DNA of 64,000 bases from Motilibacter aurantiacus (GTDB taxonomy: Bacteria > Actinomycetota > Actinomycetes > Motilibacterales > Motilibacteraceae), in the NCBI RefSeq assembly GCF_011250645.1, contig NZ_JAANNO010000004.1, positions 62,001 to 126,000 on the forward strand, in the 5' to 3' direction. How positions within the stretch are numbered: position 1 is the first letter of the stretch; the number at the start of each line of letters is the position of its first letter. The translations under genes and the position numbers were made by a program. Positions 1 through 18,221 of the stretch are shown here, one piece after another. Below the pieces are notes generated by a model. It was not told the DNA's origin, made no database searches, and saw only the letters and a list, made by a program, of their open reading frames with translations.

Positions 1-685
1 CCGGCTCGAGGTCGCCAACATCGCCGACGTGCGCATGGCGCACATCCACCTCGGCGGCCCGGGCCAGAACGGCCCCATCGCCGTCAACCTGTTCAACGAC
101 CCGGCCGGCGTCACCGTCGACGGCGAGACGCGGATCGCCGAGGGGCGCATCACGCCCGCCGACGTCATCGCACGGGCTCCCGGCTTCGACGGGTCCATGG
201 CCGAACTGCTCCGCCGGATCAAGCAGGGACGGGCGTACGTCAACGTCCACACCGCCGCCCTGCCCGGAGGGGAGATCCGGGGACAGCTCTCGGCCGTCAA
301 CGGGCGCGTCCTGTCGCACTACCAGGACCCGGCCCTGAGCTGGAAGTACGAGCTGGCGCCCATCGGCCTCGGCTTCCAGGACGGCAACGCGCTCGGCAGT
401 GCCTACCACGGTGACCTGTTCGTCGGCGCGGCCCGCAACGTGCTGCTCGGGGGCCAGATCTTCAAGATCGACCTCAACAGCCGGCGTACCGGGATCTCGT
501 CCACCGACAAGCGCCTGCACGACAAGGTCGCCGACAACACCGAGAAGTACGGCATCACCGAGAGCGAGACGCTCCTGTTCGGCCAGGACTTCGGTGTCGC
601 GACCGATATCCGTACCGGCCCGAACGGCAATCTGTACGTCGTCTCGAACAACCTCGGCGACGTCTACGAGATCTACCGCAAGTAG
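1..685 (+). CDS. Secreted PQQ-type sugar dehydrogenase-like propeller with CHRD domain (5' partial)
   Basis: The reading frame is open to the left edge, so the gene begins outside the window; the first in-frame start (GTG at 29) lies inside a domain. The first ~95 visible residues form a CHRD domain (AHIHLGGPGQNGPIAV, then VNVHTAALPGGEIRGQL). The remainder reads like the last blades of a glucose/sorbosone dehydrogenase six-bladed propeller (ELAPIGLGFQDGNALG, YHGDLFVGAARN, IRTGPNGNLYVVSNNLGDVY). The CHRD domain therefore appears inserted within, or just before, the last blade. Proteins of this kind are normally exported, but no signal peptide is visible because the start is missing. The substrate is unknown. 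The CHRD and propeller calls come from recognised motifs; enzymatic activity is inference. Confidence 0.75.
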   Translation, partial: RLEVANIADVRMAHIHLGGPGQNGPIAVNLFNDPAGVTVDGETRIAEGRITPADVIARAPGFDGSMAELLRRIKQGRAYVNVHTAALPGGEIRGQLSAVNGRVLSHYQDPALSWKYELAPIGLGFQDGNALGSAYHGDLFVGAARNVLLGGQIFKIDLNSRRTGISSTDKRLHDKVADNTEKYGITESETLLFGQDFGVATDIRTGPNGNLYVVSNNLGDVYEIYRK

Positions 686-1000: not shown

Positions 1001-4000
1001 TCAGGCGGGAGCCGGCCCCCTGCGCTGCAGCAGCAGGGCGATCCCGCCTCCCCCGGCCGCCCCGCCGACCAGGGCCGCGCCGGCCATGGCCGCCAGCAGG
1101 ACGCCCCACGGGGGCAGCTCGCCGTCGTCGTCGGAGCCGGTCGCGGCGGCCGCGGCCAGCGTGTCGGCGACGAGGGTGGCCGGGCTCGGGGCAGCACTCG
1201 TGACGAAGTCGACCTTGAGCGAGGCGGACAGGCCGTTCGCCGCGAACGTGAGCCAGTGGTTGCCGATGGGCGTGTCGAGCGGCAGGATCACCGACCCCGC
1301 CAGCCCGCCGGCGGCATCGGCGGCGACCGTGGTGAGGGTGTCGGTGTCGTCGATCGTCACGATGACGTCGGCCGAGGCTGGGAATCCCGAGCCGGTGAAG
1401 GTCAGCTCACCGCCGGCGGTCGCCAACGAGGCGCCCAGGGTGACGGTCGCCCCGCCCGCGCTGGCACTCGCCCCCGTCGCGGAGGTGGTGCCACCGGCAG
1501 CGGCCGCACCACCGGCCGCCCCTCCGGGCGTACTCGCCGAGCCGGTCGAGCCCGCCGCCGCGACCACCGTGAACCCGGCCGTGAGCGTCGTGGGCGGGTT
1601 GGGGGCGAGGAAACGCAGCCAGTGGGCGCCGGCCGAGGTCGTCGCGGGAACCGTGACGGTGCCGGACACGTCGCCCGAGGCCGAGATGGCGAACTGCTGC
1701 AGGATGTCCTGGTCGTCGAGCTTGATCGTCAACTGCTCGCCGGCGGGAAAGCCCCTGCCGGTGAACGAGATCGTGCCGCCCGGCGTCACCGACGAGCCGC
1801 TGAGCGTCGCCTTCGCACCGGTGTTCGCGTCGCTGCCGCTCGACGCGGCGCCCGTGGCCGCGCCCCCCGCCGTCGAGCCCCCGGAGGCACCGCCCGAGCC
1901 CGAGCCCGAGCCGCCCGCAGTCGGCCCGGAGCCGGACGAGCCCGACCCGGAGCCGGACGATCCCGACCCCGCTGAGCCGCCCCCCGACGACCCCGAGGCC
2001 GCCGCCCGACCCGTCACCCGGAACGTGGCGGACTTGACGCTCGTCGCGGGGTCGGGGGCCAGGAAGCGCAGCCAGTGCGTGCCGTTCGCGGTGGCGGCCG
2101 GGATCGTCACGGACCCGGAGACCGAGCCGTCGGCGCCGATCCGGAACGTCTTGAGGATGTCGGCGTCGTCGAGCTTGACCGTCAGCGTCCTGCCGGCCGG
2201 GAACCCCGTCACCGAGAAGCTCATGGCCCGGCCCGCCTGCAGCGTCGTGGCCTTGAGGCTCGCCGCTGCCCGGCCCGCGTCAGCAGGCGTCGACGAGGAC
2301 GGCGTGGGTGACGGCGAGGCGCCGGCGGCGGTGACCGTGAAGTTGTCGGAGCGGACGCTGGTCGACGGGTTGGGCGCCAGGAAGCGCAGCCAATGCGCCC
2401 CCGCCTTCGTCGCCCCGGGGATCGTGACCGTCCCGTCGACCGAGCCGTTCGCCCCCACGGTGAACGTCGTCAGGATCGCGTCGTCGTCGAGCTTGACCGT
2501 CAGGGTCTGGCCCGCGGGGAACCGGCTCGCGCTGAACGTCAGGTCCCCGCCCGCGGTGACCGTGCTCCTGCTCAGGCGGACGGCGGCCGCCGTGGGGGAC
2601 GCGGTGGGCGCGGGGGTGGAGGTCTGCGACGGCCGGGGCTGCGGGGGCGCGGAGACCGTGAAGTCGGCGGACCGGACGCTGGTCGAGGGGTTGGCGGCGA
2701 GGAAGCGCAGCCAGTGGGTGCCGGCGGCGAGGTCCGCGGGGATCGTCACGCTCGCGTCGACCGTGCCGCTGGCGGAGATCGGGTACGTCGACAGGATCGC
2801 GCCGTCGTCGATCTTCACGGTGAGGGTCTGGCCCGCCGGGAAGCCGGTGACGCCGAACGAGAGCGCCGAGCCGGCCTGCACGGAGGCCGCGCCGAGGGAA
2901 GCGGCGGCGGGAGCCGGGGCCGGCGGGGTGGGCGCCCCGGTCACCGTGAAGTCCGCCGACCGGACGCTGGTCGAGGGGTTGGGGGCGAGGAAACGCAGCC
3001 AGTGCGTGCCGGCCGCGACCGTGCCGGCGATGGTCACGGAGCCGCTGACGGTCCCGTCCACGCCGATCGGGAAGGTCGTGAGCGTCGTGCTGTCGTCCAG
3101 CTTCACCGTCAGCGTCTGGGAGGGCGGGAAGCCCGTGCCGCTGAACGAGATCGACTGGCCGGCCTGCACGGCCGACGCTCCGAGGGACACCGCGGCGGGG
3201 GCCGGGGCCGAGGTCACGGAGAAGTCGGCGCTCCTGACGCTCGTCGCGGGGCTCTGTGCGAGGAAGCGCAGGGTGTGCGCCCCCACCGCCACGTCCGACG
3301 GGATCGTGACCGTTCCGGTGAACGAGCCGTCCGCGCCGGCAGTCAGGGCCGTCAGCGTGCGGGCGTCGTCCAGCTTGACGGTGACGGTCGCCCCGGCCGG
3401 GAACCCGACGCCGGACACCGGAATCGCGCTTCCGGCCTGCACCGAGGTCGCGCCGAGGGTCACGGCTGGGGGCACGGGGGCGGCCTGCACGGTGAAGTCC
3501 GCGCTGCGCACGCTGACGCCCGGCGTGGCCAGCAGCTGGAGCCAGTGGGTGCCGGCGGTGGTCGCGCCGGGCACGGTCACGGACGCGGTCAGCGTGCCGT
3601 CCGCGCCCGCGACGAAGCGGCCGTCGGCTTCGGCCGGGTTGCTCAGGGTGGTCGTGCTGTCCAGCTTCACGGCCACGCGCGCCGCTGCAGGGAGTCCCAC
3701 GGCCGTGAGGGTGACCGCGGTCCCGGCCGTGACCGGGGCGGCGGGCACCGTGGCCGCGGCGACCCCGAACGGCGCGCTCTTGATGCTCACGCCTCCGGAC
3801 GCGAGGAAGCGCAGCCAGTGCGAGCCGACCGCGGCGCTCGGCGGCACGGTCACCGAGCCGGCCAGCTTGCCCTCCCCGTCGACCACGAAGCGCCCGTCAC
3901 CCTCGGCCGGGTTGGCGAGCGTCGCCCCGTCGTCGATCGTGACCGCGATGCGCGCGCCCGGCACGAAGCCCGTGCCCGTGAAGCTCTGGGCTCCACCTGC

Positions 4001-4459
4001 GTGCAGGGTCGCGAGCCCGAGGCTCACGCTCGCCACGGTGACGTCGGCCCGGATGCTGACGCCGTTCGCGGCGAGGAAGCGCAGCCAGTGCGGCCCGACC
4101 GGCGTGTCAGCGGGGATGACGACGACGCCCGAGAGCGCGCCGTCGGCCGTGACGCCCCACCGTCCGTCGGACTCCGTGGGGTTCCGCAACTGCAGGCCGT
4201 CGTCGATCTTGACCGCGACCCGCGCGTCCGCGGCGAAGCCCGTGCCGCTGAACGTCACCGTCCCGCCCGCCGGCACGCTGGCGTTGGCGAGGGTGACGGC
4301 AGGCCCGGCGCTCGCGGCGATCGCTGCACCGCCGACGACGGCGCTGCCCGTGGCGAGGACGAGCGCACCGAGCAGGGCGGCCAGCAGGCGCGGCCGGCGT
4401 CCGGTGAGGACGAGCCGCCGTCTCGGGCGCGGCGCGCGGTGGGATCGGGTCGGGCTCAC
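1001..4459 (-). CDS. Membrane-anchored surface protein with ten Ig-like repeats, coupled to the siderophore synthetase
   Basis: 1152 residues. An Arg-rich N-terminus and hydrophobic stretch (residues 24-50) look like a signal peptide. Ten repeats of 84-91 residues follow (about 55-143, 145-235, 238-325, 333-416, 423-508, 520-603, 627-710, 733-816, 883-966, 1005-1088). Each has a GTGFPAG-type turn, a VKLDD/VTIDD strand and a signature near HWLRFLA. A Gly/Ser linker (821-880) separates repeats 8 and 9. The C-terminus has an acidic DDDGE, one hydrophobic segment (1118-1144) and a basic QRR, the pattern of a membrane anchor. There is no LPxTG motif. The GTG start overlaps the synthetase stop (GTGA at 4456-4459), so translation is coupled to it. 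I do not recognise a named family. Surface display is well supported; a role in handling or docking the ferric siderophore is inference from the operon only. Confidence 0.85.
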   Translation of the reverse strand: MSPTRSHRAPRPRRRLVLTGRRPRLLAALLGALVLATGSAVVGGAAIAASAGPAVTLANASVPAGGTVTFSGTGFAADARVAVKIDDGLQLRNPTESDGRWGVTADGALSGVVVIPADTPVGPHWLRFLAANGVSIRADVTVASVSLGLATLHAGGAQSFTGTGFVPGARIAVTIDDGATLANPAEGDGRFVVDGEGKLAGSVTVPPSAAVGSHWLRFLASGGVSIKSAPFGVAAATVPAAPVTAGTAVTLTAVGLPAAARVAVKLDSTTTLSNPAEADGRFVAGADGTLTASVTVPGATTAGTHWLQLLATPGVSVRSADFTVQAAPVPPAVTLGATSVQAGSAIPVSGVGFPAGATVTVKLDDARTLTALTAGADGSFTGTVTIPSDVAVGAHTLRFLAQSPATSVRSADFSVTSAPAPAAVSLGASAVQAGQSISFSGTGFPPSQTLTVKLDDSTTLTTFPIGVDGTVSGSVTIAGTVAAGTHWLRFLAPNPSTSVRSADFTVTGAPTPPAPAPAAASLGAASVQAGSALSFGVTGFPAGQTLTVKIDDGAILSTYPISASGTVDASVTIPADLAAGTHWLRFLAANPSTSVRSADFTVSAPPQPRPSQTSTPAPTASPTAAAVRLSRSTVTAGGDLTFSASRFPAGQTLTVKLDDDAILTTFTVGANGSVDGTVTIPGATKAGAHWLRFLAPNPSTSVRSDNFTVTAAGASPSPTPSSSTPADAGRAAASLKATTLQAGRAMSFSVTGFPAGRTLTVKLDDADILKTFRIGADGSVSGSVTIPAATANGTHWLRFLAPDPATSVKSATFRVTGRAAASGSSGGGSAGSGSSGSGSGSSGSGPTAGGSGSGSGGASGGSTAGGAATGAASSGSDANTGAKATLSGSSVTPGGTISFTGRGFPAGEQLTIKLDDQDILQQFAISASGDVSGTVTVPATTSAGAHWLRFLAPNPPTTLTAGFTVVAAAGSTGSASTPGGAAGGAAAAGGTTSATGASASAGGATVTLGASLATAGGELTFTGSGFPASADVIVTIDDTDTLTTVAADAAGGLAGSVILPLDTPIGNHWLTFAANGLSASLKVDFVTSAAPSPATLVADTLAAAAATGSDDDGELPPWGVLLAAMAGAALVGGAAGGGGIALLLQRRGPAPA
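1196..4297 (-). repeat. Tandem array of ten ~270-bp coding repeats
   Basis: The ten Ig-like units of the surface protein. The His-Trp-Leu signature falls at residues 124, 214, 305, 395 (HTLRFLA), 487, 582, 689, 795, 947 and 1068. Units 4-9 resemble each other more than units 1-3 and 10, suggesting that the centre expanded by duplication. Confidence 0.8.
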
Positions 4460-7400
4460 GGTCGGTCACTCCTCGGGACGGACAGCTTCGGGTCCTGCGT
4501 CAGGCGGTCCGCGACGGCGGCACCGATGGTGCGCAGCACGTCGGGGCGTACGAGCTCGGGATGGGTGCAGGCGACTTCCATGACGTCGAGCTCGCCGGTC
4601 AGGTGAGCCCCCCATCCGGAGCGGTCGAGCGAGCCGTCCGGGACCGCGAAGAGCGGCCGGTCGACGGGCGTGGTGGCGGCCACGAAGAACGCGTCGCCCT
4701 CGAGCGTGCCGTGCCGGTGGGAGCGCATCAGGGCGGCGTTGTTCGCGACGACGCCGACGACCGCGGCGAGCGTGCCGGCGTCGAGGCCGCCCACCGCGCT
4801 GCCCTGGGCGCGCAGGTGCGCGATGACCTCGTCCCGGCGCAACGGCTGCGGCAGCGGCGCCGCCGTCGGGTCCACGCCGGCCATGAGCAGCAGCGCCGTC
4901 AGGGCGTCGGACTCGTCGGGCGGCGGCAGGCTCGCCCACTGCTCGCTCGGGTACGCGTCGAGCAGGGCGACCAGGCCGACCTGCTCGCCCGCCTGCTGCA
5001 GCTGCACCGCCACCTCGTGGGCGATCACGCCGCCGACCGACCACCCCAGCAGGTGGTACGGCCCCGCGGGCTGCGCCGCACGGATGCGCCGCACGTAGTC
5101 GGCCGCCATCTCCTGCAGCGAGGCGGGCAGCGTCGCGGTGCCGTCGAGCCCCTGCGCCTGGACCGCGTAGACGGGCCGGTCCTGCGGGATCTCCTGCAGG
5201 AGCCCGACGTAGCACCAGCCGAGCCCGCCGGCCGGGTGCAGGCAGAACAGCGCCGGCGCCGACCCACCGGAGCGGAGCGGGAGCAGGCCGGCCAGCGCGT
5301 CGCCGGCGCGGCCCTCCTCGACGAGCTCGGCGAGCCCGGCAGGGGTCGGGGCCGCGAACACCGACGCCAGCGGGACGTCGCGCCCCAGCACGGACCGGGC
5401 CCGGGCGGCGAGCTGGGCGGCCAGCAGCGAGTGCCCGCCCAGCTCGAAGAAGCCGTCCTCCGGCCCCACGCGGTCGAGGCCGAGCACGTCCGCGAAGAGG
5501 CCGCAGAAGGCTTCCTGCATGGGCGTGCGGGGGACGGCGTCGGCCCCACGGACGTCCCGCTGCGGCTGCGGCAGCGCCGCGCGGTCGAGCTTCCCGTTGA
5601 CGGTGACGGGCAGCGCGTCCAGGAGGACGTACGCGGTCGGCACCATCGCATCGGGCAGGGCCGCCGTCAGGTGCTCGCGCAGCTCGGACACCTCGAGCGC
5701 GCGGGCGGGAACGACGTACGCGGCCAGGTAGCGGTCGCCCGGCCGGTCCTCGCGCGCGACGACCGCCCCGGTGGCGACGCCGGCGTGCGCCCGCAGCACG
5801 GACTCCACCTCGCCGAGCTCGATGCGCTGGCCGCGGATCTTGACCTGGTCGTCGTTGCGTCCCACGTAATCGAGGGCACCGTCGAACCGCCAGCGGGCGA
5901 GGTCGCCGGTGCGGTACATGCGCTCCCCCGGCACGAACGGGTCGGGCAGGAAGCGCTCCGCGGTGAGCTCGGGGCGGTTGAGGTAGCCGTCCGCGACCTG
6001 GACGCCGGCGAGGTGGAGCTCGCCGGCGGCCCCGATCGGGGCCGGCCGGCCGGCGGCGTCCAGGACGTACGTGCGGGTGTTCCACACCGGTCGCCCGATG
6101 GGGACCGGGCCGGCCGGGGCGTCGGGCCGGCACTCCCAAGCGGTGACGTCGACGGACGCCTCGGTGGGGCCGTACAGGTTGTGCAGGGCGACGCCGGGCA
6201 GCGTGGCGTGGAACCGCCGGGCCGTCGCCTCGGCCAGCGCCTCCCCGCTGCAGACGACGCGCCGCAGCGACCGGGCGGCACCGGCGGCGGCCGGCTCGTC
6301 GAGGAACGCCTCCAGCATCGACGGCACGAAGTGCGCGGTCGTGATCCGCTCGCGCACGAACAGCTCCGCGAGGTACGCCGGGTCACGGTGCGCGCCTGGC
6401 CGGGCCAGCACCAGGGTCGAGCCGGCCAGCAGCGGCCAGAAGAACTCCCAGACCGAGACGTCGAAGCCGGAAGGCGTCTTCTGGACCACGCGGTCGTCCG
6501 GGCCGAGCCGGTACGCGTCCTGCATCCAGAGCAGCCGGTTGACGATGCCGCGGTGCGGCACGACCACGCCCTTGGGGCGCCCGGTCGAGCCGGACGTGTA
6601 GATGACGTACGCGGGGTCGTCGGGCCCGGCCTGCGGGCCGGTCGCGGGGGCGGGTGCCACCTCCGGCGCCTCGTCGACGAGGACCACCGGGGTACCCGCG
6701 GGCAGGCGGGCCGCCGACGAGGCGTCGCACACGACGCACACCGGGTGCGCGTCCTCGAGGACGAAGGCGAGCCGGTCGGCCGGGTGGGCCGGGTCCAGCG
6801 GGAGGTAGGCGGCGCCGGCCCGGTGGGCGGCGTACAGGCTCGCGACGAGCTCGACCGAGCGGTCCAGGGCGACCGCGACCACGCGCCCCGGGCCCGCGCC
6901 CCGGGCGCGCAGCCGGGCCGCGAGCGCTGCGGCCCGCTCGTCGAGCTCGGCGTAGGTCAGCGTGCCGCCGCCGTCGGCGACGAGCGCGACGGCGTCGGGG
7001 GTGCGGGCGGCCTGGTCGGCGAAGAGCCGGGGCAGGGTGGTGGCTGGCACCGGCTGGGCGGTGTCGTTCCAGTCCCGGAGCACGAGGTCGCGCTCGGCTG
7101 CGGGCAACGCGTCCAGCTCCCCGACCCGGGCCTGCGCGCCCGCGTCGGCGATCGCGTCGAGCAGGTGGACGAGCCGGCGCTGATGGGCCTCGACGGCGTC
7201 CGGGGAGTAGAGCGCCGGGTTGGCGTCGACCTCGATCTGCAGGCCCTCGTGCTTGCCGCGCAGGTAGACGTTGACGGTGAGGTCGTCCACCGGCCCGGCG
7301 GACAGGTTGTGGGCGACGGCCGGCAGCCCGGCGAAGCGCAGGTCCGGCTCGAACGGCATCACGTTGACCTGCGGGCCGAAGAGCCGGGCCCCGCCGGGGG

Positions 7401-8463
7401 CCGCTCCCAGGTCGCGCCCGAGCTCCTCGTAGCGGTACCGCCCGTGCCGGGCGGCGGCGCGCGCCTGGTCCCCCACCCGGGCGACGAGCGCGGACAGCGG
7501 CTCGGCGTCGTCCACCAGCAGTCGCAGCGGGGGCACGTTCACGACCATCGCCGGGACCTGCATCGCCACGGAGCCGAGCCGTCCCATGACCGGCCAGCCG
7601 AGGACGACGTCCGGCGAGCCCGTCACCCGGGAGACCAGGAGGCCGGCCGCCGCGGCCACCAGGTGCGGCCAGACCGTCCCCATCCGGGCGGCCGCGGCCT
7701 GCAGCCGGTCGAGCAGGCCGGGCGGGAGCTCGGCCACGCTGCGTGAGAAGCGGTGCGACGTCGGGGCGGACCCGGTGGCGAGGCTGACCTGCGCGGGGCG
7801 GTCGTCGAGCTCGGCGAGCCAGTACGCGCGGTCGGCCGCGTGCCGCTCGGACTGCTCGTAGGCCCTGTCCTCGGCCACCAGGTCGCGCAGCGGCCGGAAC
7901 CGCGCGGGCGGCGGGGGCTCCTGGGCGACGAGCGCCGTGTAGAGCTCCGCGGTCCGGCGGCTCAGCAGCGACATGCCGAAGTAGTCGATGACGACGTGGT
8001 GGAAGCGGTGGTACCAGAGCCAGTGGTCGGCGCCGAGCCGGAAGAGCACATTGGCGAAAAGCACATCGTGTGACAGGTCGAGCGGACGCCAGAGGTCCTG
8101 GCGCATGAGCTCCTCGGCAGCCAGCCTCGGGTCGGGCTCGCCGGCCAGGTCCACGACCGGCATGTCCCCGGGGGCGACGGGGACCGGGTGCTGCCACGGG
8201 ACGCCCGAGGAGTCCTCGACGAGCCGCACGTGGAGGGCGTCGGCCTCGCTGACCGCACGCCGGGCCGCCTCCACGAGGGCGGCGGGCTCGAGCGGCCCGC
8301 GCAACTCGAGGTACTCGCCTGTGTTGAAGACTGGGTTGGACGGGTCCAGCGCCTGCGCGAACCACACCCCGCGCTGCGCGCCGGTCAGCGGCAGGCGCCG
8401 GTCGGCGTCGACGTCGCGGGGGCCGGGCACGGCAGCCGTGGTGGCCGCGTCGAGCGCGGTCAC
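4456..8463 (-). CDS. dhbF: Serine-activating NRPS C-A-T-TE, enterobactin synthetase EntF/DhbF type
   Basis: 1335 residues in the order condensation (about 22-440), adenylation (455-965), thiolation (980-1050, phosphopantetheine Ser1012 in GGHSLL) and thioesterase (1068-1325). The thioesterase triad is Ser1142 (GWSVGG), Asp1169 and His1301. The adenylation core YTSGSTGRPKG is intact. Reading the pocket by position gives D668, V669, W672, H711, V737, S739, L763, V771, D772, K958, that is DVWHVSLVDK, a serine code. The condensation motif is HHVVIDY rather than HHxxxDG: the catalytic His and Asp remain but Gly is Tyr. One Ser module plus a terminal TE matches EntF, which condenses DHB with Ser and cyclises three units. 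The GTG start overlaps the carrier-protein stop (GTGA), and the 3' end overlaps the next gene the same way. EntF-type enzymes often need an MbtH partner; none is encoded in this window. Confidence 0.95.
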   Translation of the reverse strand: MTALDAATTAAVPGPRDVDADRRLPLTGAQRGVWFAQALDPSNPVFNTGEYLELRGPLEPAALVEAARRAVSEADALHVRLVEDSSGVPWQHPVPVAPGDMPVVDLAGEPDPRLAAEELMRQDLWRPLDLSHDVLFANVLFRLGADHWLWYHRFHHVVIDYFGMSLLSRRTAELYTALVAQEPPPPARFRPLRDLVAEDRAYEQSERHAADRAYWLAELDDRPAQVSLATGSAPTSHRFSRSVAELPPGLLDRLQAAAARMGTVWPHLVAAAAGLLVSRVTGSPDVVLGWPVMGRLGSVAMQVPAMVVNVPPLRLLVDDAEPLSALVARVGDQARAAARHGRYRYEELGRDLGAAPGGARLFGPQVNVMPFEPDLRFAGLPAVAHNLSAGPVDDLTVNVYLRGKHEGLQIEVDANPALYSPDAVEAHQRRLVHLLDAIADAGAQARVGELDALPAAERDLVLRDWNDTAQPVPATTLPRLFADQAARTPDAVALVADGGGTLTYAELDERAAALAARLRARGAGPGRVVAVALDRSVELVASLYAAHRAGAAYLPLDPAHPADRLAFVLEDAHPVCVVCDASSAARLPAGTPVVLVDEAPEVAPAPATGPQAGPDDPAYVIYTSGSTGRPKGVVVPHRGIVNRLLWMQDAYRLGPDDRVVQKTPSGFDVSVWEFFWPLLAGSTLVLARPGAHRDPAYLAELFVRERITTAHFVPSMLEAFLDEPAAAGAARSLRRVVCSGEALAEATARRFHATLPGVALHNLYGPTEASVDVTAWECRPDAPAGPVPIGRPVWNTRTYVLDAAGRPAPIGAAGELHLAGVQVADGYLNRPELTAERFLPDPFVPGERMYRTGDLARWRFDGALDYVGRNDDQVKIRGQRIELGEVESVLRAHAGVATGAVVAREDRPGDRYLAAYVVPARALEVSELREHLTAALPDAMVPTAYVLLDALPVTVNGKLDRAALPQPQRDVRGADAVPRTPMQEAFCGLFADVLGLDRVGPEDGFFELGGHSLLAAQLAARARSVLGRDVPLASVFAAPTPAGLAELVEEGRAGDALAGLLPLRSGGSAPALFCLHPAGGLGWCYVGLLQEIPQDRPVYAVQAQGLDGTATLPASLQEMAADYVRRIRAAQPAGPYHLLGWSVGGVIAHEVAVQLQQAGEQVGLVALLDAYPSEQWASLPPPDESDALTALLLMAGVDPTAAPLPQPLRRDEVIAHLRAQGSAVGGLDAGTLAAVVGVVANNAALMRSHRHGTLEGDAFFVAATTPVDRPLFAVPDGSLDRSGWGAHLTGELDVMEVACTHPELVRPDVLRTIGAAVADRLTQDPKLSVPRSDRP

Positions 8464-8732
8464 TCCGCCCTGCCGGCGGCGCTGCCCGCGGGAGCCAGCA
8501 GGCCGGCCCAGGCAGCCACCGTCGGCCGCTCGGCGAGGTCCAGGAAGGAGACCGTCGTGCCGGCTCCCTGCCAGCGGTTGACGAGCGAGAGCAGCCGTAC
8601 CGAGTCCAGACCGGCGTCGATGAGGTCGTCGTCGTCACCGATCTCGGCCGGGGAGACGCCGAGGATTCCCGCGACCTCCGCACGCAGGGACTCGAGGTGC
8701 GCGGGGCGGGGCGCGGCGGTGGGGTCGCTCAT
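8460..8732 (-). CDS. Free-standing aryl carrier protein
   Basis: 90 residues from the ATG at 8732, chosen because AGGAG lies nine bases upstream; a start at 8819 in the same frame would add a non-homologous leader. The motif DDDLIDAGLDSVRLLSL contains the phosphopantetheine serine in the LDSVR context typical of the C-terminal aryl carrier domain of EntB/DhbB. The isochorismatase of this locus (13943-14599) lacks that domain, so the usual fusion is split here. The DHB-AMP ligase should load 2,3-dihydroxybenzoate onto this protein for transfer to the synthetase. It is the first gene of the leftward iron-box operon and ends in a GTGA overlap with the synthetase. Confidence 0.9.
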   Translation of the reverse strand: MSDPTAAPRPAHLESLRAEVAGILGVSPAEIGDDDDLIDAGLDSVRLLSLVNRWQGAGTTVSFLDLAERPTVAAWAGLLAPAGSAAGRAE

Positions 8733-8839: not shown

Positions 8840-8858
8840 TTAGGGCAGGCTGCCCTTA
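8840..8858 (-). promoter_or_regulatory. IdeR/DmdR iron box for the leftward siderophore operon
   Basis: TTAGGGCAGGCTGCCCTTA is a near-perfect inverted repeat that fits the actinobacterial iron-box pattern TTAGGTTAGGCTAACCTAA. It lies 107 bp upstream of the carrier-protein start and 27 bp from a second box facing the other operon. Repression under iron sufficiency by an IdeR/DmdR1/DtxR regulator is expected; the regulator is not in the window. Confidence 0.85.
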
Positions 8859-8885: not shown

Positions 8886-8904
8886 TTAGGTGAGCCTTGC
8901 CTTA
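8886..8904 (+). promoter_or_regulatory. IdeR/DmdR iron box for the rightward siderophore operon
   Basis: TTAGGTGAGCCTTGCCTTA matches the 19-bp iron-box consensus at most positions. It ends 42 bp before the ATG of the YVTN propeller gene, where a box overlapping the promoter would block transcription of the propeller-dhbACEB operon. Confidence 0.88.
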
Positions 8905-8946: not shown

Positions 8947-10242
8947 ATGCCCTTCTCCACGACGCGCTCGACGGGCGCCCGCCTGCGCCGCACGGCCCGC
9001 ATCGCCGCCGTCGCCACCGCGAGCGCAGCGCTCGCCGTGACCGGCCTGTCCGCCTCGTCGGCGTCCGCCGCCGACGGCCCGGTCAAGAGCGGCAGCTTCC
9101 CGGTCGCGCTCGGCGTCTACGAGGTCGTCACCAACCCCTACACGGGCAAGTCCTACGTCGCGAGCGGCGGCACGCGCACCAACACCGCCACCGCGCGGAT
9201 CCAGGAGGTGGACACGAAGACAGGGCAGGTCACCGGCTTCATCGAGTCCTCCGACACCGCGCCGTACGCGCTCGCCATCAACCCGGTGACGAACACGCTG
9301 TACACCGGCAACACCCGCAAGAACTCGGTCTCCGTCTACGACCTCGACACGAACACCGAGGTCACGACCATCGAGCTCGGCGTCCAGAACCGCCAGCTCG
9401 AGGTCGACACGGTGAACAACAAGGTCTACGTGACCGAGATCAACAACCAGCGCGTCGCGGTCATCGACGGCGCGACCAACACCCTCGAGGGGACCTTCGG
9501 CGTCGGCCCCGGGGCCAACGCGATGGACGTCGAGTACGACCCCGCGACCAAGAACTTCTACGTCGTGCACCTGGCCGGCGACGTCACCGTGATCGACGGC
9601 AGGACGAAGAAGATCAAGAAGGTCATCGCGCTCCCCTCGACCTCGCAGAACATCAGCGTCGACCCGAAGACCGGGCTCGGCTTCGTGACCGGCTACAGCA
9701 CGGGGTCGGTCTCCGTCATCGACACCAAGAAGCTGTCGCTGGTCAAGACCGTCGACGCGGGCAACAACAACGGCGGCCTCGGCATCGACCTCGACGAGGG
9801 CAACCACACGGCGTACTTCACCAACCAGGGTGACGGCACGCTGTGGGCGATCGACACCGCCACCGGCGACCTCAAGTGGTCGCTCCCGGTCGGCCCCCGA
9901 GCCAACACCCCGGCCGTCGACACGCTCTACGACCAGGTCTTCGTGACCAACAAGGGCGACGACACGGTCGCGATCGTGAAGCCGGCGGCCAGCGCGGCGG
10001 ACGACCGGTCGACGGCCGCCCGGGTGCTCGCCGCGCTGAGGCCGTACGCGAAGGCCGACACCGACCTGCACAAGGCGCTCAAGGACCTCGAGCGCGCGCT
10101 CTCCCGTGGCAACTGGACGACCGCGGGCGACCTCGTCGCCTCGCGGGAGGGTGTGCGCTACCTCGCGCGCGCGGTGTCCGAGCTGCGCGCCGCCGACGCT
10201 CCCGCGCCGGCCGCGATCCTCGAGGAGATCGCGGGGCTGTGA
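8947..10242 (+). CDS. Secreted YVTN/YncE-family beta-propeller protein
   Basis: 431 residues from the ATG at 8947, preceded by GGAGG at 8935-8939; an upstream in-frame start at 8890 lies inside the iron box. A Tat/Sec-like signal ([20 protein letters not shown]) ends in ASA, with cleavage predicted after residue 41. The body is a run of about seven 40-45-residue blades with YVTN-like strands ([56 protein letters not shown]). A helical tail of about 85 residues (from [20 protein letters not shown]) is not part of the propeller. E. coli YncE is known to be iron-regulated, but its function is unsettled. Here the gene leads the biosynthetic operon and overlaps dhbA by GTGA. An extracellular binding or scaffold role in siderophore use is inference. 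Confidence 0.88.
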
Positions 10243-11033
10243 CCGCCCCCGGTCGTCCAGGTATCGACGGGACCGTCGCCCTCGTGACGGGCGCGGGCCG
10301 CGGCATCGGCGCAGCCGTCGCCTCCGCCCTCGCCCGGGACGGTGCCTCCGTCGCCGTGCTGGACGCCGACGCGAGCGCCGCGGAGGACACCTCCGCGGCG
10401 CTCCGCGCCGTCGGCGCCCGCTCCCTGCCCTACGCGGTGGACGTGCGCGACCGCACCGCCGTCGACGGGGCCATGACCGACCTGGAGCGCCGGCTGGGCC
10501 CGCTCGACACCCTGGTCAACGTCGCCGGGGTGCTGCGCCCCGGCCCCGTCGCGGGCCTGTCCGACGAGGACTGGGACCTCACCTTCGCCGTGAACGCCAC
10601 CGGCGTCTTCGCGGCGTCGCGCGCCGCCGCCCGCCGCATGCTCCCCCGCCGTCGCGGGAGCATCGTCACCGTCGGGTCGAACGCCGCTGGCGTCCCCCGG
10701 GTGAACATGGCCGCGTACGCCGCCTCGAAGGCGGCCGCCGCCCAGTTCACCAAGTGCCTGGGGCTCGAGCTGGCCCCGCACGGGATCCGGTGCAACGTCG
10801 TCTCCCCGGGCTCCACGCTCACCGACATGCAGCGCTCGCTCTGGGCCGGCCCGGACGGCGCCGACGCGGTCATCGCGGGCGACCCGGGGACGTACCGCGT
10901 CGGCATCCCGCTGGGCCGGATCGCGGACCCCGCCGACGTCGCCGAGGCGGTCCTGTTCCTCGTCTCCGACGCCGCACGCCACATCACCATGCACGACCTG
11001 TACGTCGACGGCGGCGCGACTCTTCGCGCCTGA
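10239..11033 (+). CDS. dhbA: 2,3-dihydro-2,3-dihydroxybenzoate dehydrogenase (DhbA/EntA)
   Basis: 264-residue short-chain dehydrogenase. It has the NAD-binding GAGRGIGAA turn, a VNVAGVL strand and the catalytic Ser-Tyr-Lys set (VTVGSNAAG, then YAASK). It oxidises 2,3-dihydro-2,3-dihydroxybenzoate to 2,3-dihydroxybenzoate, the last step of the DHB branch. The GTG start overlaps the propeller stop (GTGA at 10239-10242), so the two are translationally coupled. By sequence alone it could be another SDR; the dhbC/E/B neighbours settle the assignment. Confidence 0.92.
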
Positions 11034-11053
11034 AAGACTCTTCTGGAGAACAC

Positions 11054-12250
11054 GTGACCGCACAGCTGGAGACACCCGCCATGCCCCTGCCGGCGCAGCA
11101 CGCGCTCGCCGGCTACGTGCCGGGAGCGTCGGCGTTCTTCGCCTCGCCGCGGCACACCCTCCTCGCCGAGGGCGTCGTCGCCCGCCTGCCCGACGGGACG
11201 GCGTCGAGCCGGCTCGGCGACGCCGTCCGGCTGCTGCTCGCCGACGCGGTGCTCGCCGGCGGCCCGGGGATCGTCGTCGGCGCGGTGCCCTTCGCACCGG
11301 GCCGCGGTGCTGCCCTGACCGTCCCCGAGCAGGTCACCTGGGGGGCGCCGCTCGCAGCCCCCGCCCCCGCCCCGGCCCTCCCGCCGCCGGCCGCCGGCGA
11401 GGTGGTGGTGCGCCCGGTCCCCGAGCCCGAGCGCTACGCGGCGGGGGTCGCGGCGGCCCTGGAGCGGATGGCAGCCGGCGACGTGGCGAAGGTCGTGCTG
11501 GCGCGTGCCCTGGACGTGCGCACCGCCCGCCCCGTCGACGTGCACGCGCTGCTCACCCGGCTCGCGGCGCGCGACCCGCACGGCTACGCCTTCGCGGTCG
11601 AGCTGCCCGCCGACGACCTCGGCGGGGCCCGCACCCTGGTGGGGGCCAGCCCGGAGCTGCTCGTGTCCCGCACCGACGGCACGGCCCGTGCGAACCCGCT
11701 CGCCGGCTCGGTCCCGCGCAGCCCGGACCCCGAGGAGGACCTGCGGCGCGGGCAGGAGCTGCTGCGCTCGGCCAAGAACCTGCGCGAGCACGCGGTCGTC
11801 ATCGAGGCCGTCGTCGAGGGCCTGCGCCCGCTGTGCCGTTCGGTGTCGGTGACGGGCCCGTCGCTGGTGCAGACCGCCACCATGTGGCACCTCGGCAGCG
11901 GGATCACCGGGCAGCTCACGAGCCGCGAGACCACGTCCCTCGACCTGGCCCTCGCCCTGCACCCGACCCCGGCCGTCTGCGGCACCCCCGTCGACGCGGC
12001 GCGCGGCCTCATCGCCGAGGTGGAGCCGTTCGACCGCGGGTTCTACTCCGGAGCGGTCGGCTGGTGCGACGCCGACGGCGACGGCGAGTGGGTCGTCACC
12101 ATCCGGTGCGGCGAGGTCAGCGGAAGCCGTGTTCGCCTGTACGCCGGGGCGGGCATCGTGCCCGGCTCCCGGCCGGAGGACGAGCTCGCGGAGACCACCG
12201 CCAAGCTCGGCACGTTCCTGCAGGCGCTCGGCCTGGACGGCGTGGCATGA
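11054..12250 (+). CDS. dhbC: Isochorismate synthase (DhbC/EntC)
   Basis: 398 residues from the GTG at 11054, preceded by GGAGA at 11044. It is a chorismate-binding enzyme with the family core [63 protein letters not shown] and a C-terminal [10 protein letters not shown]. It converts chorismate to isochorismate, the entry step to 2,3-DHB. It lies 20 bp after dhbA and overlaps dhbE by ATGA. Menaquinone MenF is the alternative, rejected by context. Confidence 0.94.
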
Positions 12251-13875
12251 GCACCGGCCCCGGCCAACTGCCCGGCTACGTCCCCTGGCCGGTGGAGTTC
12301 GCCGAGCGCTACCGGGCTTCCGGCTACTGGACCGGCGAGACGTTCGGCAGCATGCTGCGCGACCTGGCCGCACGGCACGGCGACCGGGTGGCCGTCGTCG
12401 ACGGCGACCGGCGGTGGACGTACGCCGAGCTGGACGAGCGGGCCGACCAGGTCGCGGCCGGCCTGCACCGGCTGGGCATCCGCCCGCGCGACCGCGTCGT
12501 CCTGCAGCTGCCCAACGTGGCCGAGTTCTTCGAGGTCGTCTTCGGGCTGTGGCGCGTCGGCGCGCTGCCGGTGTTCGCGCTGCCGGCCCACCGCAGCAAC
12601 GAGATCACGTACTTCTGCTCGTTCACCGAGGCCGTCGCCTACGTCGTCCCGGGCCGGCACGGCGGATTCGACTACCGCGGCCTCGCCGGCGAGGCGAGGG
12701 CGGCGGCGCCGACTCTGCGGCACGTGATCGTCGTCGGTGACGCCCCCGGCGACTTCACGGCGCTCGAGGACGTGCGCGCCGAGGCGCGCCCGCTGCCGGC
12801 GCCCGCCCCGTCCGACGTCGCCTTCCTGCAGCTGTCCGGCGGCAGCACGGGTGTGCCGAAGCTCATCCCGCGCACGCACGACGACTACCTCTACAGCGTC
12901 CGGGCCAGCGCCGAGATCTGCGCGCTGGACGAGTCGAGCGTCTACCTCGCGGCCCTTCCGGTGGCGCACAACTTCCCGCTGAGCTCCCCCGGCGCCCTCG
13001 GCACGCTGTACGCCGGGGGCACGGTCGTCCTCGCGCCCGACCCGAGCCCGGCGACCGCGCTCGGGCTGATCGAGCGCGAGCGGGTCACCATCACCGCCGT
13101 CGTGCCGCCGCTGGCGCTGGTCTGGCTCGACTCCGCGCCGGCACTGGGGCACGACCTGTCGAGCCTGCGGGTGCTGCAGGTGGGCGGCTCGAAGCTCAGC
13201 GAGGAGGTGGCCCGCCGGGTCACCCCGACCCTGGGGTGCGGGCTGCAGCAGGTCTTCGGCATGGCCGAGGGGCTGGTCAACTACACGCGGCTCGACGACC
13301 CGGACACGATCGTGCTCACCACCCAGGGCCGGCCCATCTCCCCCGACGACGAGATCAGGGTGGTCGACGACGCGGGCGAGGACGTGCCGCCCGGCGAGGT
13401 GGGGCATCTGCTGACGCGGGGGCCGTACACGATCCGCGGCTACTACCGGGCGGAGGAGCACAACCGCACGGCCTTCACCGTCGACGGCTTCTACCGCACC
13501 GGCGACCTCGTCCGGGTCACTCCCGAGGGCTACCTCGTGGTCACCGGTCGGGACAAGGACCAGATCAACCGCGGCGGGGAGAAGATCGCCGCCGAAGAGA
13601 TCGAGAACCACCTGCTCGCGCACCCCGCGGTGCACGACGCCGCGGTGGTGGCCGTGCCGGACGCCTACCTGGGCGAGCGCAGCTGCGCCGTCGTCGTGCC
13701 CCGCGGCTCCGCGCCGACGGCCCTGGAGCTGAAGAAGTTCCTGCGCGAGCGCGGGCTGGCGGCGTACAAGGTGCCCGACCTCGTGAAGTTCGTCGACGCC
13801 TTCGCCCACACCGGCGTGGGCAAGGTCAGCCGCAAGGAGCTGCGCGAGGCGCTCGCCGCCTCCCTCCGTCGGTGA
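12247..13875 (+). CDS. dhbE: 2,3-dihydroxybenzoate-AMP ligase (DhbE/EntE)
   Basis: 542 residues, stand-alone aryl-acid adenylating enzyme. It has the P-loop [16 protein letters not shown], the aryl-acid pocket strand [12 protein letters not shown] with the Asn characteristic of DHB/salicylate activators, and the highly conserved [19 protein letters not shown]. The hinge/catalytic lysines appear in [14 protein letters not shown] and [12 protein letters not shown]. It forms DHB-AMP and transfers DHB to the phosphopantetheine of the aryl carrier protein. The ATG overlaps the dhbC stop (ATGA at 12247-12250). Confidence 0.95.
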
Positions 13876-13878
13876 CTC

Positions 13879-13899
13879 GCGCGCTTCCCACAAGCGCGC
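13879..13899 (+). other. Intercistronic hairpin between dhbE and dhbB
   Basis: GCGCGCTT, a five-base loop CCCAC, then AAGCGCGC form a perfect 8-bp stem in the 67-bp gap after dhbE. There is no T-tract. It could be a partial terminator or an RNA-processing point lowering dhbB expression; its function is not shown by sequence. Confidence 0.4.
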
Positions 13900-13942
13900 T
13901 TCAGCCAATCCTTCTTCTGCCGTCTCCTGAAAGAGGCCTGCC

Positions 13943-14599
13943 ATGGCGCTGCCGCGCATCGCGCCCTACCCGCTCCCCGCGCTCGGCTCTCTCCCCCAGA
14001 ACCGCGTCGACTGGCGCCCCGACCCCCGCCGCGCCGTGCTGCTCGTGCACGACATGCAGCGCTACTTCCTCGCCGCGTTCGAGCCCGGCACGTCCCCGCT
14101 GACCGATGCGGTCTCGCACATCCGCGCCCTCGCCGCCGGGGCGCGCGCGCTCGGCATGCCGGTCGTCTACAGCGCGCAGCCCGGCGGCCAGACGCGCGAG
14201 CAGCGTGGCCTGCAGCAGGACTTCTGGGGCGACGGCATCCCCGGCGACGAGGGCTCGCAGATCGTCGACGCGCTGGCCCCCGAGCCCGGGGACGTGCTGA
14301 TGACCAAGTGGCGCTACAGCGCGTTCCAGCGCACCCGGCTGGCCGAGCTGCTCGCCGAGACCGGGCGTGACCAGCTCGTCATCACCGGGGTGTACGCCCA
14401 CATCGGCTGCCTCGCCACGGCCAACGAGGCGTTCATGCGCGACGTCCAGGCGTTCGTCGTGGCCGACGCGCTGGCCGACTTCTCCGCGGAGCACCACCGC
14501 CACGCCCTCGAGTACGCCGCCCAGCGCTGCGCGGTCGTCCTCCCCGCCGCCCGGGTGCTGGAGGAGCTGACCGCGAGCACCGCGGTGGCCGGGCGCTGA
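13943..14599 (+). CDS. dhbB: Isochorismatase without carrier domain (DhbB/EntB N-terminal part)
   Basis: 218 residues covering only the isochorismatase domain. It contains VLLVHDMQRYFL with the catalytic Asp, the conserved MTKWRYSAFQRT lysine strand and ITGVYAHIGCLATANEAFMRD with the nucleophilic-position Cys. It hydrolyses isochorismate to pyruvate and 2,3-dihydro-2,3-dihydroxybenzoate for DhbA. Most EntB/DhbB proteins run to about 285-310 residues with a fused aryl carrier domain; here the carrier is a separate gene (8460-8732). AAAGAGG precedes the ATG. Confidence 0.94.
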   Translation: MALPRIAPYPLPALGSLPQNRVDWRPDPRRAVLLVHDMQRYFLAAFEPGTSPLTDAVSHIRALAAGARALGMPVVYSAQPGGQTREQRGLQQDFWGDGIPGDEGSQIVDALAPEPGDVLMTKWRYSAFQRTRLAELLAETGRDQLVITGVYAHIGCLATANEAFMRDVQAFVVADALADFSAEHHRHALEYAAQRCAVVLPAARVLEELTASTAVAGR

Positions 14600-15292: not shown

Positions 15293-16315
15293 TCAGGCCC
15301 CCGACGCCAGCGTCTGCTGCACGGTGTCCAGGATCGTCGTGGCGGCGAGCGGGCCACCGGCGCTCATCCACGCCGAGCCGTCGACGGGCACGATCCGGTG
15401 CGCCGCGTAGGCCTCCAAGTCGGAGAAGCCGGGCGTCTGCCCCGCCTGCACCAGGGCCTTGGCGCTCGCCTCCGCGCCCGTGCCGGTCTGGCTGGCGCCC
15501 CCGCCCGGGCCGGCGCCGCCGCCGCCGAGGGTGCCGAAGAAGACCCAGTCGGCGTCGATGTCCTGCAGGTTCTCCAAGCTGATCGGCACCGAGTGGCCGG
15601 GGCCGTCCATGTCCTGGGAGGCCGGGCGGGTCAGCCCGAGGTCGGCCACGACCTTGCCGGGCAGCAGCTCCTTCATGAGGACCTGGGGCTGGCCGGACCA
15701 GCGCACGATGCTCACGCTCGCCCCGGCGTTCGGGCCGAGCGCGGCCTTCACCTGCTCGACCCGGGTCTCGTAGTCGGCCAGGACCTTCTCTCCCTCCGCG
15801 GCGCGGCCGAGGGCCTCGGCCTCGGCGGCGAAGGCGGCCTTCCAGTCCTGGCCGCCCTCGCTGACGAAGACCGTGGGCGCGATGCCGCGCAGCTTGCCGA
15901 TGACGGACTCGTCGGAGGAGGTCGTTCCGTCGACCAGGATCAGGTCGGGCTGCAGCGCCGCGATCTTCTCCAGGTCCGGGGAGCCGATGCCGGCGACGAC
16001 GGGGATGGCCTTCGCCTGCGCCCCCAGGTAGTTCGGCACGCTGCTCTGACCGCGCCCGTTCGTCGTGCCCACCGGGGTCACCCCGAGGGCCAGCGCCCCG
16101 TCCAGTGTGGGCTCGCTCAGGGCGACGACGCGGGACGGCCGCGCCGGGACCTCCACCCGGGCGCCGGACGCGTCCGTGATCGTGCGGGTGCCCCCCGTGG
16201 GGGTCGACGACCCGGTCGACGCGTTGTCGGCGTCGTTCCCGGACGAGCAGCCGGTGACGGCGAGGGCGGCGAGGGCGGCGCCCAGCAGCAGGCGGGAGAA
16301 GCGCGAGGCCAACAT
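15293..16315 (-). CDS. fepB: FepB-like ferric siderophore-binding lipoprotein
   Basis: 340 residues. The leader ends in a lipobox V-T-G-C at residues 20-23, so the protein should be lipid-anchored outside the membrane. The body is a periplasmic-binding-protein type 2 (BtuF/FepB/FhuD) fold: TRTITDASGARVEVPARPSR, VVALSEPTLDGALALGVTPV, EKIAALQPDLILVDGTTS and a C-terminal YAAHRIVPVDGSAWMSAGG. It should deliver the ferric catecholate to an ABC permease. No FepD/G/C genes are present in the window, so the permease must be elsewhere. An iron box lies 24 bp upstream of the start. Confidence 0.9.
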   Translation of the reverse strand: MLASRFSRLLLGAALAALAVTGCSSGNDADNASTGSSTPTGGTRTITDASGARVEVPARPSRVVALSEPTLDGALALGVTPVGTTNGRGQSSVPNYLGAQAKAIPVVAGIGSPDLEKIAALQPDLILVDGTTSSDESVIGKLRGIAPTVFVSEGGQDWKAAFAAEAEALGRAAEGEKVLADYETRVEQVKAALGPNAGASVSIVRWSGQPQVLMKELLPGKVVADLGLTRPASQDMDGPGHSVPISLENLQDIDADWVFFGTLGGGGAGPGGGASQTGTGAEASAKALVQAGQTPGFSDLEAYAAHRIVPVDGSAWMSAGGPLAATTILDTVQQTLASGA

Positions 16316-16338: not shown

Positions 16339-16357
16339 TTAGGGATGCCTTACCTAT
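16339..16357 (-). promoter_or_regulatory. IdeR/DmdR iron box upstream of the binding-protein gene
   Basis: TTAGGGATGCCTTACCTAT matches the iron-box pattern. It overlaps the TAG stop codon of the upstream esterase gene (16354-16356), so the operator is partly coding. It lets the binding protein be iron-controlled separately from fes. Confidence 0.85.
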
Positions 16358-17622
16358 CCTGACCTACCTGCTGTGCTCAGCAGCGTCGTCAGCCCTTCGG
16401 CGATCCCGCCCCGCCAGCAGGCCTGGTCGTGCCCGCCGGCGAACTCGCGGTAGTCCAGCGCGTACCCCCGCGCGGCGAGCGCGTCGCGCAGGCGGCGCGC
16501 CGGCTCCAGGCTGACCCACTCGTCGGTGCCGTTCTCCAGGAAGAAGCGCACCGGCACCGGCTCGGCGCGCAGCACGTGCCGCGTGACCGCCTCGGGCCCG
16601 GGCAGCGGGTCGTTGGGCCACCACCACGAGCCGGACTGGGCCAGGACCGCGCCGAGGCGCTCCGGGGCGTGCAGCGCCGCGTGCGCCGCGGCCAGCCCCC
16701 CGAGGCTCTGCCCCGCGACCACGGTGAGCGCGGGGTCCGCCGTCGCTGCCAGCTCGGCGGTGGCCCACGGCGCCAGCTCGCGCGCGAGGAACTGCGCGAA
16801 GCCCTCGGAGCAGGACAGGTCCCGGAACCGCTCCTGCCTGCTCCCGGCTTCGGGCAGCACCGCGACGAGCGGCGGGACCAGCCCCTCGGCCACCAGGTTG
16901 TCCAGGGTCGGGACGATCGAGAGCCGCTCGAGCCACATCTCCCCGTCGAGCAGGACCAGCAGCGGGTACGGCCCCCCGCCCGCGCGATGCCCCGCCGGCG
17001 TGTACGCCCACACCGCCCGCGCCGGCCCGTACGCCGCGCTCGCCACCTCGTGCCGCGTCACGCTGCCGCGGCGCACGCCCGGCCGCGCGCGCAGGTACGG
17101 CTGGGCGGGCGCGTCCGGCAGCTCCGCGACCGACCGCGCACCGACCCCCGGCGGCTGAAGCAGGATTCGCCCGTTCAGCGGGTCCGGTACGCCACGCCCC
17201 GCCGCCAGGGCCCGCAGCGCGGCGGCGTCCCCGTCGGGCCCGGGCACGAAGACGTAGCTCCCCCGCCACGTCGCGGGCAGCCGGTACGACAGGTGCCACA
17301 GGTCCGTGCCCGGCACCCGCTCCATGAGGCTCTGCTCGAGCCGGCTGCGGTCGGTGAGCTTGTTGGCCAGCAGCAGGACCCGTCCCGCGTCCCCGCGCCA
17401 GAGGAACGTCACGACGCAGTAGCCGGCGGCGTCGACGGCGCCGATCAACGGCGTGCCCTGCTCGGCGGCCTCCGCCCAGAGCCGCTCGACCGCGTCCGGG
17501 TCGTGTGCGAGCTCGCGGCGCAGGGTGGCGATGCGCGGCCCGGCGCAGACGGGGGCGGGCCAGGGCCGCGGGAGGCGCGGCGGCGTGCTCCCCGCGGGCA
17601 GCCCGACGCTGCGGTCGCTCAT
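16354..17622 (-). CDS. fes: Enterochelin esterase (Fes family)
   Basis: 422 residues from the ATG at 17622, preceded by GGAGGGAGGGG; longer in-frame starts lack homology. An N-terminal beta-sandwich (WRGDAGRVLLLANKLTDRS, LWHLSYRLPATWRGSYVF) is followed by an alpha/beta hydrolase domain. That domain has the nucleophile motif VAGQSLGGLAA, the strand GSWWWPND and the Fes-type histidine motif GGHDQACWRGG. Fes enzymes cut the trilactone of ferric enterobactin in the cytoplasm to release iron; no signal peptide is seen here, in agreement. It lies 38 bp upstream of the FepB-like gene on the same strand. Its presence supports a cyclic DHB-Ser ester product. No iron box is seen directly upstream of fes. 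Confidence 0.92.
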   Translation of the reverse strand: MSDRSVGLPAGSTPPRLPRPWPAPVCAGPRIATLRRELAHDPDAVERLWAEAAEQGTPLIGAVDAAGYCVVTFLWRGDAGRVLLLANKLTDRSRLEQSLMERVPGTDLWHLSYRLPATWRGSYVFVPGPDGDAAALRALAAGRGVPDPLNGRILLQPPGVGARSVAELPDAPAQPYLRARPGVRRGSVTRHEVASAAYGPARAVWAYTPAGHRAGGGPYPLLVLLDGEMWLERLSIVPTLDNLVAEGLVPPLVAVLPEAGSRQERFRDLSCSEGFAQFLARELAPWATAELAATADPALTVVAGQSLGGLAAAHAALHAPERLGAVLAQSGSWWWPNDPLPGPEAVTRHVLRAEPVPVRFFLENGTDEWVSLEPARRLRDALAARGYALDYREFAGGHDQACWRGGIAEGLTTLLSTAGRSG

Positions 17623-17663
17623 GGCCCCTCCCTCCGCCGCGGCGGGGAAGCGTACCCAGCACA

Positions 17664-18221
17664 ATGCGCCCCGTGGCAGACGCGTTGACCTTCTTCCCCG
17701 CGCACGAGCGCACCGACCTGCTCGCCGCACCGGTGGCCGCGGCGGTATCGGCCTGGTCCCCGTCGTTCCCTGTGGAGGACGTGGTCGTCGCCGAGATCGA
17801 CGCAGCGGCCGCGGACACGGCCGAGTTCTGCGCGCGCTACGGGGTCGGCCTCGAGGAGTCGGCCAACTGCGTGGTCGTCAGCGGCAAGCGGGAGGGCGAG
17901 GAGCGCTTCGCCGCCTGCATGGTGCTGGCCACGACCCGGGCCGATGTCAACGGCGTGGCCCGCAAGCGGCTCGGGGTCCGCAAGGCCTCCTTCGCCCCGA
18001 TGGACGCCGCGGTCTCGCTGACCGGCATGGAGTACGGCGGCATCACGCCCGTCGGCCTGCCCGCAGGCTGGGCGATCTATGTGGACGTGGCGGTCGCGTC
18101 GTCGCCCCGCGTCGTCGTCGGAAGCGGGATACGTGGCTCCAAGCTCTGGCTTCCGGGTGCGGCACTCGCTGCCCTGCCCGGGGCCGAGGTGGTCGAGGGC
18201 CTGGGGCGCCCGGTCGCCTGA
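17664..18221 (+). CDS. YbaK/aminoacyl-tRNA deacylase-like protein
   Basis: 185 residues from the ATG at 17664 (a GTG nine bases later is possible). It resembles the YbaK/ProRS-INS editing fold: CVVVSGKREGEERFAACMVL, then RKRLGVRKASFAPMDAAVSL, the GGITPVGLPAGW loop and a C-terminal GSGIRGSKLWLPG. Such proteins deacylate mischarged tRNA. The gene is divergent from fes with only 41 bp between them and no clear ribosome-binding site, so a leaderless message is possible. Exact tRNA specificity is unknown. Confidence 0.82.
   Translation: MRPVADALTFFPAHERTDLLAAPVAAAVSAWSPSFPVEDVVVAEIDAAAADTAEFCARYGVGLEESANCVVVSGKREGEERFAACMVLATTRADVNGVARKRLGVRKASFAPMDAAVSLTGMEYGGITPVGLPAGWAIYVDVAVASSPRVVVGSGIRGSKLWLPGAALAALPGAEVVEGLGRPVA

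Follow-up and report, generated by a model that had tools for sequence, protein, structure and literature searches.

We analysed a 64,000-nucleotide stretch of the genome of the soil actinobacterium Motilibacter aurantiacus (the window; contig NZ_JAANNO010000004.1, positions 62,001 to 126,000), in which a gene on the minus strand (1001-4459) encodes a surface protein of 1152 residues. The protein consists of ten immunoglobulin (Ig)-like modules with the signature HWLRFLA and lies in a catecholate-siderophore locus. It very probably takes part in the acquisition of siderophore iron and is probably a hitherto undescribed element of the actinobacterial iron-uptake machinery. More specifically, the evidence on balance tips towards a surface component of catecholate-siderophore iron acquisition that is iron-regulated, anchored in the membrane and spans the wall. 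A sequence-only reading of the same DNA had proposed a cell-surface component that would bind, store or transfer the ferric siderophore; linkage to siderophore genes and iron boxes agree with a surface role in ferric-siderophore acquisition, whereas a partnership with the adjacent EntF-type synthetase is not supported.

The assignment is carried by genomic linkage. Using the peptide pattern GxHWL[RQ]FLA as the sole criterion, i.e., ignoring genomic context, we searched about 85,000 genomes of bacteria and archaea and confirmed 48 loci, all from Actinomycetota and distributed over 19 groups of genus level or higher. Forty-seven of these loci contained at least one of the genes for FepB, Fes, FecCD/ATPase or a catechol nonribosomal peptide synthetase (NRPS). 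In the single unlinked locus (L002), an iron box matching 18 of 19 consensus positions precedes the module gene by 105 bp, and a propeller gene there has a 17/19 box of its own. A second, independent survey covered 394 genomes with a profile built from 50 modules, and its matches divided into strong modules (at least 77 bits on rescoring) and weak look-alikes (below about 51 bits). Strong modules adjoined siderophore genes in 6/6 loci outside the host, whereas the weak look-alikes, i.e., generic Ig modules, had siderophore genes nearby in 0/34 loci (p = 2.6e-7), and Fes was present in 7/7 strong-module genomes compared with 35/394 overall (p = 2.4e-8); both p-values ignore shared ancestry. Counts of presence in the genome surveys are lower bounds, since scoring was confined to the top candidates of each genome. 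Gene order varies among clades, yet the siderophore link persists, and we therefore conclude that it does not stem from a single inherited block. All ten module matches above 100 bits in the host genome fell into the gene at 1001-4459, with the next best match at 27 bits. A phylum-wide survey found modules in 5/197 genomes at E 1e-8 and was too sparse to use. The profile search across actinobacteria that the sequence-only reading had suggested thus found the repeat beside siderophore genes; homologues scattered without such genes, the outcome it had named as contrary evidence, were not the pattern in either search.

Iron boxes point in the same direction. Two DtxR/IdeR-type boxes are situated between two divergent operons, one of which contains the surface-protein gene: TTAGGTGAGCCTTGCCTTA at 8886-8904, matching the DtxR consensus at 15/19 positions, and a second at 8840-8858 with 14/19. 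Another 14/19 box is found upstream of fepB (16339-16357). Shuffled windows yielded no box scoring 14 or more. Moreover, in 13 of the 14 Streptomyces loci the module gene was preceded, at a distance of about 58-120 bp, by a box of at least 16/19, while generic control DNA contained 8 boxes of at least 16/19 in 650 kb. Several propeller genes were preceded by a 17/19 box of their own. Joint iron regulation of the surface protein with the siderophore genes is hence supported as a prediction from these sites, in line with the earlier suggestion that the gene is under the iron box of the siderophore operon.

The open reading frame (ORF) at 1001-4459 starts with GTG. A signal peptide region covers about residues 1-50 (4310-4459, minus strand), with a basic N-terminus and a hydrophobic stretch at residues 23-51. 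By alignment, the modules are about 90 residues each and comprise residues 55-147, 143-237, 234-327, 330-417 and 421-508 (modules 1-5) and 517-604, 624-711, 730-817, 881-968 and 1003-1089 (modules 6-10). Modules 1-3 (3479-4297, minus strand) form a subtype marked by a loop insertion of 7 residues, and follow each other almost without linkers. Modules 4-10 (1193-3472, minus strand) are separated by linkers that are at first Pro/Ser/Thr-rich, later Gly/Ser-rich, and lengthen towards the membrane. HWLRFLA is exact in seven of the ten modules and reads HWLQLLA, HTLRFLA or HWLTFAA in the others; the His is kept in 10/10 and the Trp in 9/10 modules. Together with KxDD and the siderophore locus, GxHWLRFLA is the signature that we propose for the family, and the Motilibacter protein has all of these features. 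Hydropathy indicated a C-terminal anchor at residues 1118-1145 (1025-1108, minus strand), followed by a short basic tail. No LPxTG/LAxTG sorting signal was found at the C-terminus (ELPPWG...QRRGPAPA), nor did it match a sorting-signal family; the Streptomyces L006 homologues, in contrast, have LASTG/LADTG. Computation thus supports an exported protein that is predicted to be C-terminally membrane-anchored, and ORF, ten-module alignment and hydropathy agree with the architecture first noted from the letters. A syntenic homologue in Motilibacter deserti is 67% identical.

The fold prediction that had been called for was carried out with AlphaFold2, and the module was modeled as an Ig-like sandwich with a predicted local distance difference test (pLDDT) score of 97.6. 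The top folds in VIA-align were macromomycin and neocarzinostatin (Z 11.2 and 10.9 over 85-86 residues). These apoproteins (PF00960) are actinomycete small-molecule carriers and the closest solved folds, but they share only 12-15% identity with the module and are neither tandem nor anchored. Searching PDB sequences with this module as a profile gave no significant match. Among NCBIfam models, the GxPGS Ig-like domain NF058592 matched the whole protein above its curated cut-off (59.6 versus 45 bits) through summed repeats; the six-frame genome search with this model gave a single match, below cut-off. This model is, however, generic: it is also the NCBIfam model matched most often by the non-iron control modules and misses the KxD/HWLRFLA signature.

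From these features we derive a possible mode of action. The C-terminal segment would hold the protein in the membrane, and ten beads with flexible linkers would reach through the peptidoglycan. The K-x-D/W-x-R-F-L-A surface of each bead may weakly bind ferric catecholate or its carrier protein; ten such weakly binding beads would therefore capture ferric siderophore and keep it near the cell. The array would then pass its cargo to the FepB-like lipoprotein and the FecCD ATP-binding cassette (ABC) importer, with Fes presumably releasing the iron after import. The likely extracellular partner of the array is the YncE-type propeller, whose gene shares its iron boxes with that of the array. That the protein captures or relays ferric siderophore we regard as somewhat favoured. 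Besides linkage and iron boxes, the secreted single-module proteins, the HtaA fusion beside FepB in L006, the family-specific residues and the small-molecule carriers among the closest solved folds speak for it. The full scheme, a dedicated actinomycetotal ferric-catecholate surface relay in which neocarzinostatin-like HWLRFLA modules and the propeller take up the ferric siderophore outside the wall and hand it over to FepB, is more tentative, and we put it forward as a plausible conjecture.

Several points weigh against capture and relay. Ig-like repeats frequently are mere spacers or adhesins. The fold score is common to other Ig folds, as macroglobulin domains came next in the VIA-align ranking with Z up to 9.9. 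Likewise, PF00960 and NF040680 weakly matched 3/50 and 14/50 modules (best 5.5e-4 and 3.6e-4), and such similarity to the neocarzinostatin family is also found in generic control modules, 9/36 of which matched NF040680. Because generic modules match the same profile, we treat the neocarzinostatin likeness as a lead only, and sequence kinship with this family is weakened as a family-specific clue. Of the residues that set the family apart from generic Ig modules, K33 (100% versus rare), D35, W67, R69, F70, L71 and A72, the conservation of W67-A72 partly reflects the search motif, whereas that of K33 and D35 does not; G64, H66 and P58 are common to the Ig fold in general. Finally, most Fes/dihydroxybenzoate (DHB) loci lack the module, including many Streptomyces EntF/Dhb/Fes loci, and in about 20 kb around the survey Fes genes it occurred in few regions only (L157, L168, L171, L177). 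The module is therefore dispensable for siderophore use in general. From the same absence we conclude that the surface protein belongs to uptake and not to the synthetase, and we rejected a need of EntF for it; many module loci contain transport genes with no NRPS nearby. The surface protein is an accessory of siderophore uptake in some lineages.

Arrays of Ig repeats joined by Gly/Ser/Pro linkers often serve as stalks. The array could accordingly be a wall-spanning scaffold that spaces the propeller or FepB, the siderophore being bound by the propeller and not by the modules. A YncE-like propeller is present in 28/48 family loci compared with 0/34 control loci, and one Corynebacterium propeller protein itself bears weak module copies, both of which would suit a scaffold. 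On the other hand, in many loci no propeller can be recognised within 10 kb, and the family-specific residues differ from those of generic Ig modules. Moreover, Thermoleophilia encode secreted single-module proteins of about 130-200 residues adjoining FepB/Fes (e.g., L018 from a Conexibacter MAG, 128 residues), which suggests that a lone module is useful and argues against a pure stalk. We thus consider a mere scaffold unlikely. Still less probable is that the protein retains the siderophore against cheaters, or senses the ligand, without hand-over to FepB. In Motilibacter, iron-box control and the gene overlap with the synthetase would fit this explanation; no signalling domain, however, was found with Pfam or NCBIfam, and because many family loci with transport genes have no synthetase nearby, keeping a siderophore of the cell's own making cannot be the general role.

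The HtaA/ChtA proteins of Corynebacterium (CR domain, PF04213) are heme surface proteins with a Tyr heme ligand (PMC12494546). They resemble the Motilibacter protein in being actinobacterial, exported and C-terminally membrane-anchored with one or more beta-sandwich domains in the wall, as well as iron-regulated and feeding a lipoprotein-dependent ABC importer (PMC12494546), both of the latter being predictions in our case. An HtaA domain is also fused to the module in the Streptomyces locus L006. A surface receptor for heme or hemoproteins that is co-regulated with siderophore genes by happenstance nevertheless seems very improbable: the 1152-residue protein had no HtaA (PF04213) or NEAT match even at E 10, no Tyr was conserved in the 50-module alignment, and the neighbouring genes, to which the family is tied, are Fes and catecholate (DHB) genes. 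An HtaA or NEAT heme protein was rejected on the missing domain match. An ordinary adhesin or surface-layer protein linked to iron genes by chance is the least credible explanation. The Ig-like fold would allow it, as would the best profile matches, which are generic Ig/adhesin families. The linkage counts given above and the iron boxes preceding homologues speak against it, and we rejected it on the 34 control loci without siderophore genes.

The usual scheme of siderophore uptake in Gram-positive bacteria consists of a lipoprotein and an ABC importer, with no component needed for crossing the wall. In the NEAT-domain Isd system of Bacillota, tandem Ig-like modules across the wall relay heme inward. 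The HWLRFLA array is alike in that tandem Ig-like modules across the wall would pass an iron source inward; it differs in phylum and ligand, and NEAT was not among its Pfam matches (E up to 10). In Corynebacterium diphtheriae, the ZnuE/ZnuF/ZnuG proteins are likewise extra surface proteins encoded beside a metal ABC importer, with single- and multi-domain versions and, in ZnuF, no sortase signal (PMC12445094). They are zinc-regulated and have an HxD/HxH motif, whereas the HWLRFLA family has iron boxes and no HxD/HxH in the module alignment, where each module conserves a single His, that of G-x-H-W-L. RUSTI islands of cheese actinobacteria also encode siderophore import with substrate-binding proteins, permeases and an ATPase; in the passages of that study we consulted, substrate-binding proteins are the sole surface components described, with no mention of an Ig-module protein (PMC5526665). 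We found no publication describing the HWLRFLA module family in the open-licence literature.

A widespread module family linked to iron boxes and almost confined to siderophore loci suggests an extra surface stage in many actinobacteria, as is already known for heme (HtaA/ChtA, NEAT/Isd) and zinc (ZnuE/F/G). If it exists, the relay would be the siderophore counterpart of the heme Isd/Hta relays. The analysis also provides a function hypothesis for a protein family for which Pfam and NCBIfam have no specific model, connects YncE-type propellers with siderophore use, and points to proteins of harmless soil bacteria that can be tested directly.

Within the window, the surface-protein gene starts in the stop of an EntF-type NRPS (4456-8463, minus strand; domains C-A-T-TE by Pfam and NCBIfam; PDB EntF match with E 1.5e-238), the two genes sharing GTGA, as is evident from the ORF coordinates. 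An aryl carrier protein gene (8460-8732, minus strand; Pfam PP-binding, 7.7e-13) overlaps the EntF start likewise. The genes had been described as translationally fused; they merely overlap, and EntF and the surface protein are probably translationally coupled. M. deserti has the same genes in the same order, with one base shared by the EntF stop and the module-gene start (TAGTG).

The divergent operon on the plus strand begins with the gene of an exported, seven-bladed YncE-type propeller (8947-10242; Pfam YNCE and structure model). ATG 8947 behind GGAGG is its likelier start, as the longest ORF begins at 8890, across the iron box. We know of no settled role for YncE. The model shows 28 strands in seven blades and a C-terminal helical domain, with E. 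coli YncE, which is Fur-regulated (PMC5120174), as best PDB match. Residues 371-450 (10000-10239) form this all-helical domain and match DUF7902 weakly. DHB genes assigned by Pfam follow (9843-14599, plus strand): a DhbA-like short-chain dehydrogenase/reductase (ORF to 11033), DhbC (ORF to 12250), DhbE (to 13875) and DhbB (13943-14599). Further on, the minus strand encodes a FepB-like siderophore-binding lipoprotein (15293-16315; Pfam Peripla_BP_2 and NCBIfam ferric dicitrate/enterobactin substrate-binding protein families) and the enterochelin esterase Fes (16354-17730; NF007758, 277.7 bits, cut-off 222). Two FecCD genes and an ABC ATPase gene are located about 2.5 kb from the surface-protein gene, just left of the window. 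With DHB/NRPS genes, propeller, FepB, Fes and FecCD/ATPase present, the locus is therefore a complete catecholate-siderophore system. A plasmid search gave no match. A secreted 706-residue GSDH and CHRD protein is encoded by a gene that comes fourth in the row, behind FecCD-FecCD-ATPase (L178:10565-12685; genome C4:60565-62685), and the end of which is window 1-685; M. deserti (L001) has a gene of similar size, for 707 residues, at this position.

Module number and neighbours vary in other actinobacteria. Compared with ten modules in Motilibacter, Streptomyces DHB loci have four or five, S. griseoviridis JCM 4250 being an example with four. Corynebacterium, Nocardioides, Nesterenkonia, Microbacterium and others encode pairs of a large (roughly 600-2400 residues) and a small (roughly 240-400 residues) anchored protein between FepB and FecCD. 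Streptomyces anchored proteins beside FepB contain one HWLRFLA module each (L006:9008-10546, L010:9251-10471); the HtaA domain fused to the module in L006 (PF04213, 1.1e-10) is accompanied by a LADTG-like sorting signal at the end. WxL-type systems are known chiefly from Firmicutes; in Phytohabitans (L037:6635-7780), a protein with a WxL-interacting-protein peptidoglycan-binding domain (PF06030) is encoded between a propeller gene and FepB; it has cluster relatives in L039 and L020, with relatives in Spirilliplanes. A gene for a GntR/FCD-type regulator (L025:5851-6513; cluster c6, 13 loci) is a repeated neighbour of FepB/Fes, for example in Nocardioides, Cellulomonas and Nesterenkonia. Large anchored proteins encoded close to FepB and to the small module protein (L025:7563-9881, L019:5103-7796, L047:4866-9659) have a related G-x-HTLRLL motif; two of them match no Pfam family, and that of L047 contains I-set Ig domains. 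These proteins possibly form a second, divergent module family.

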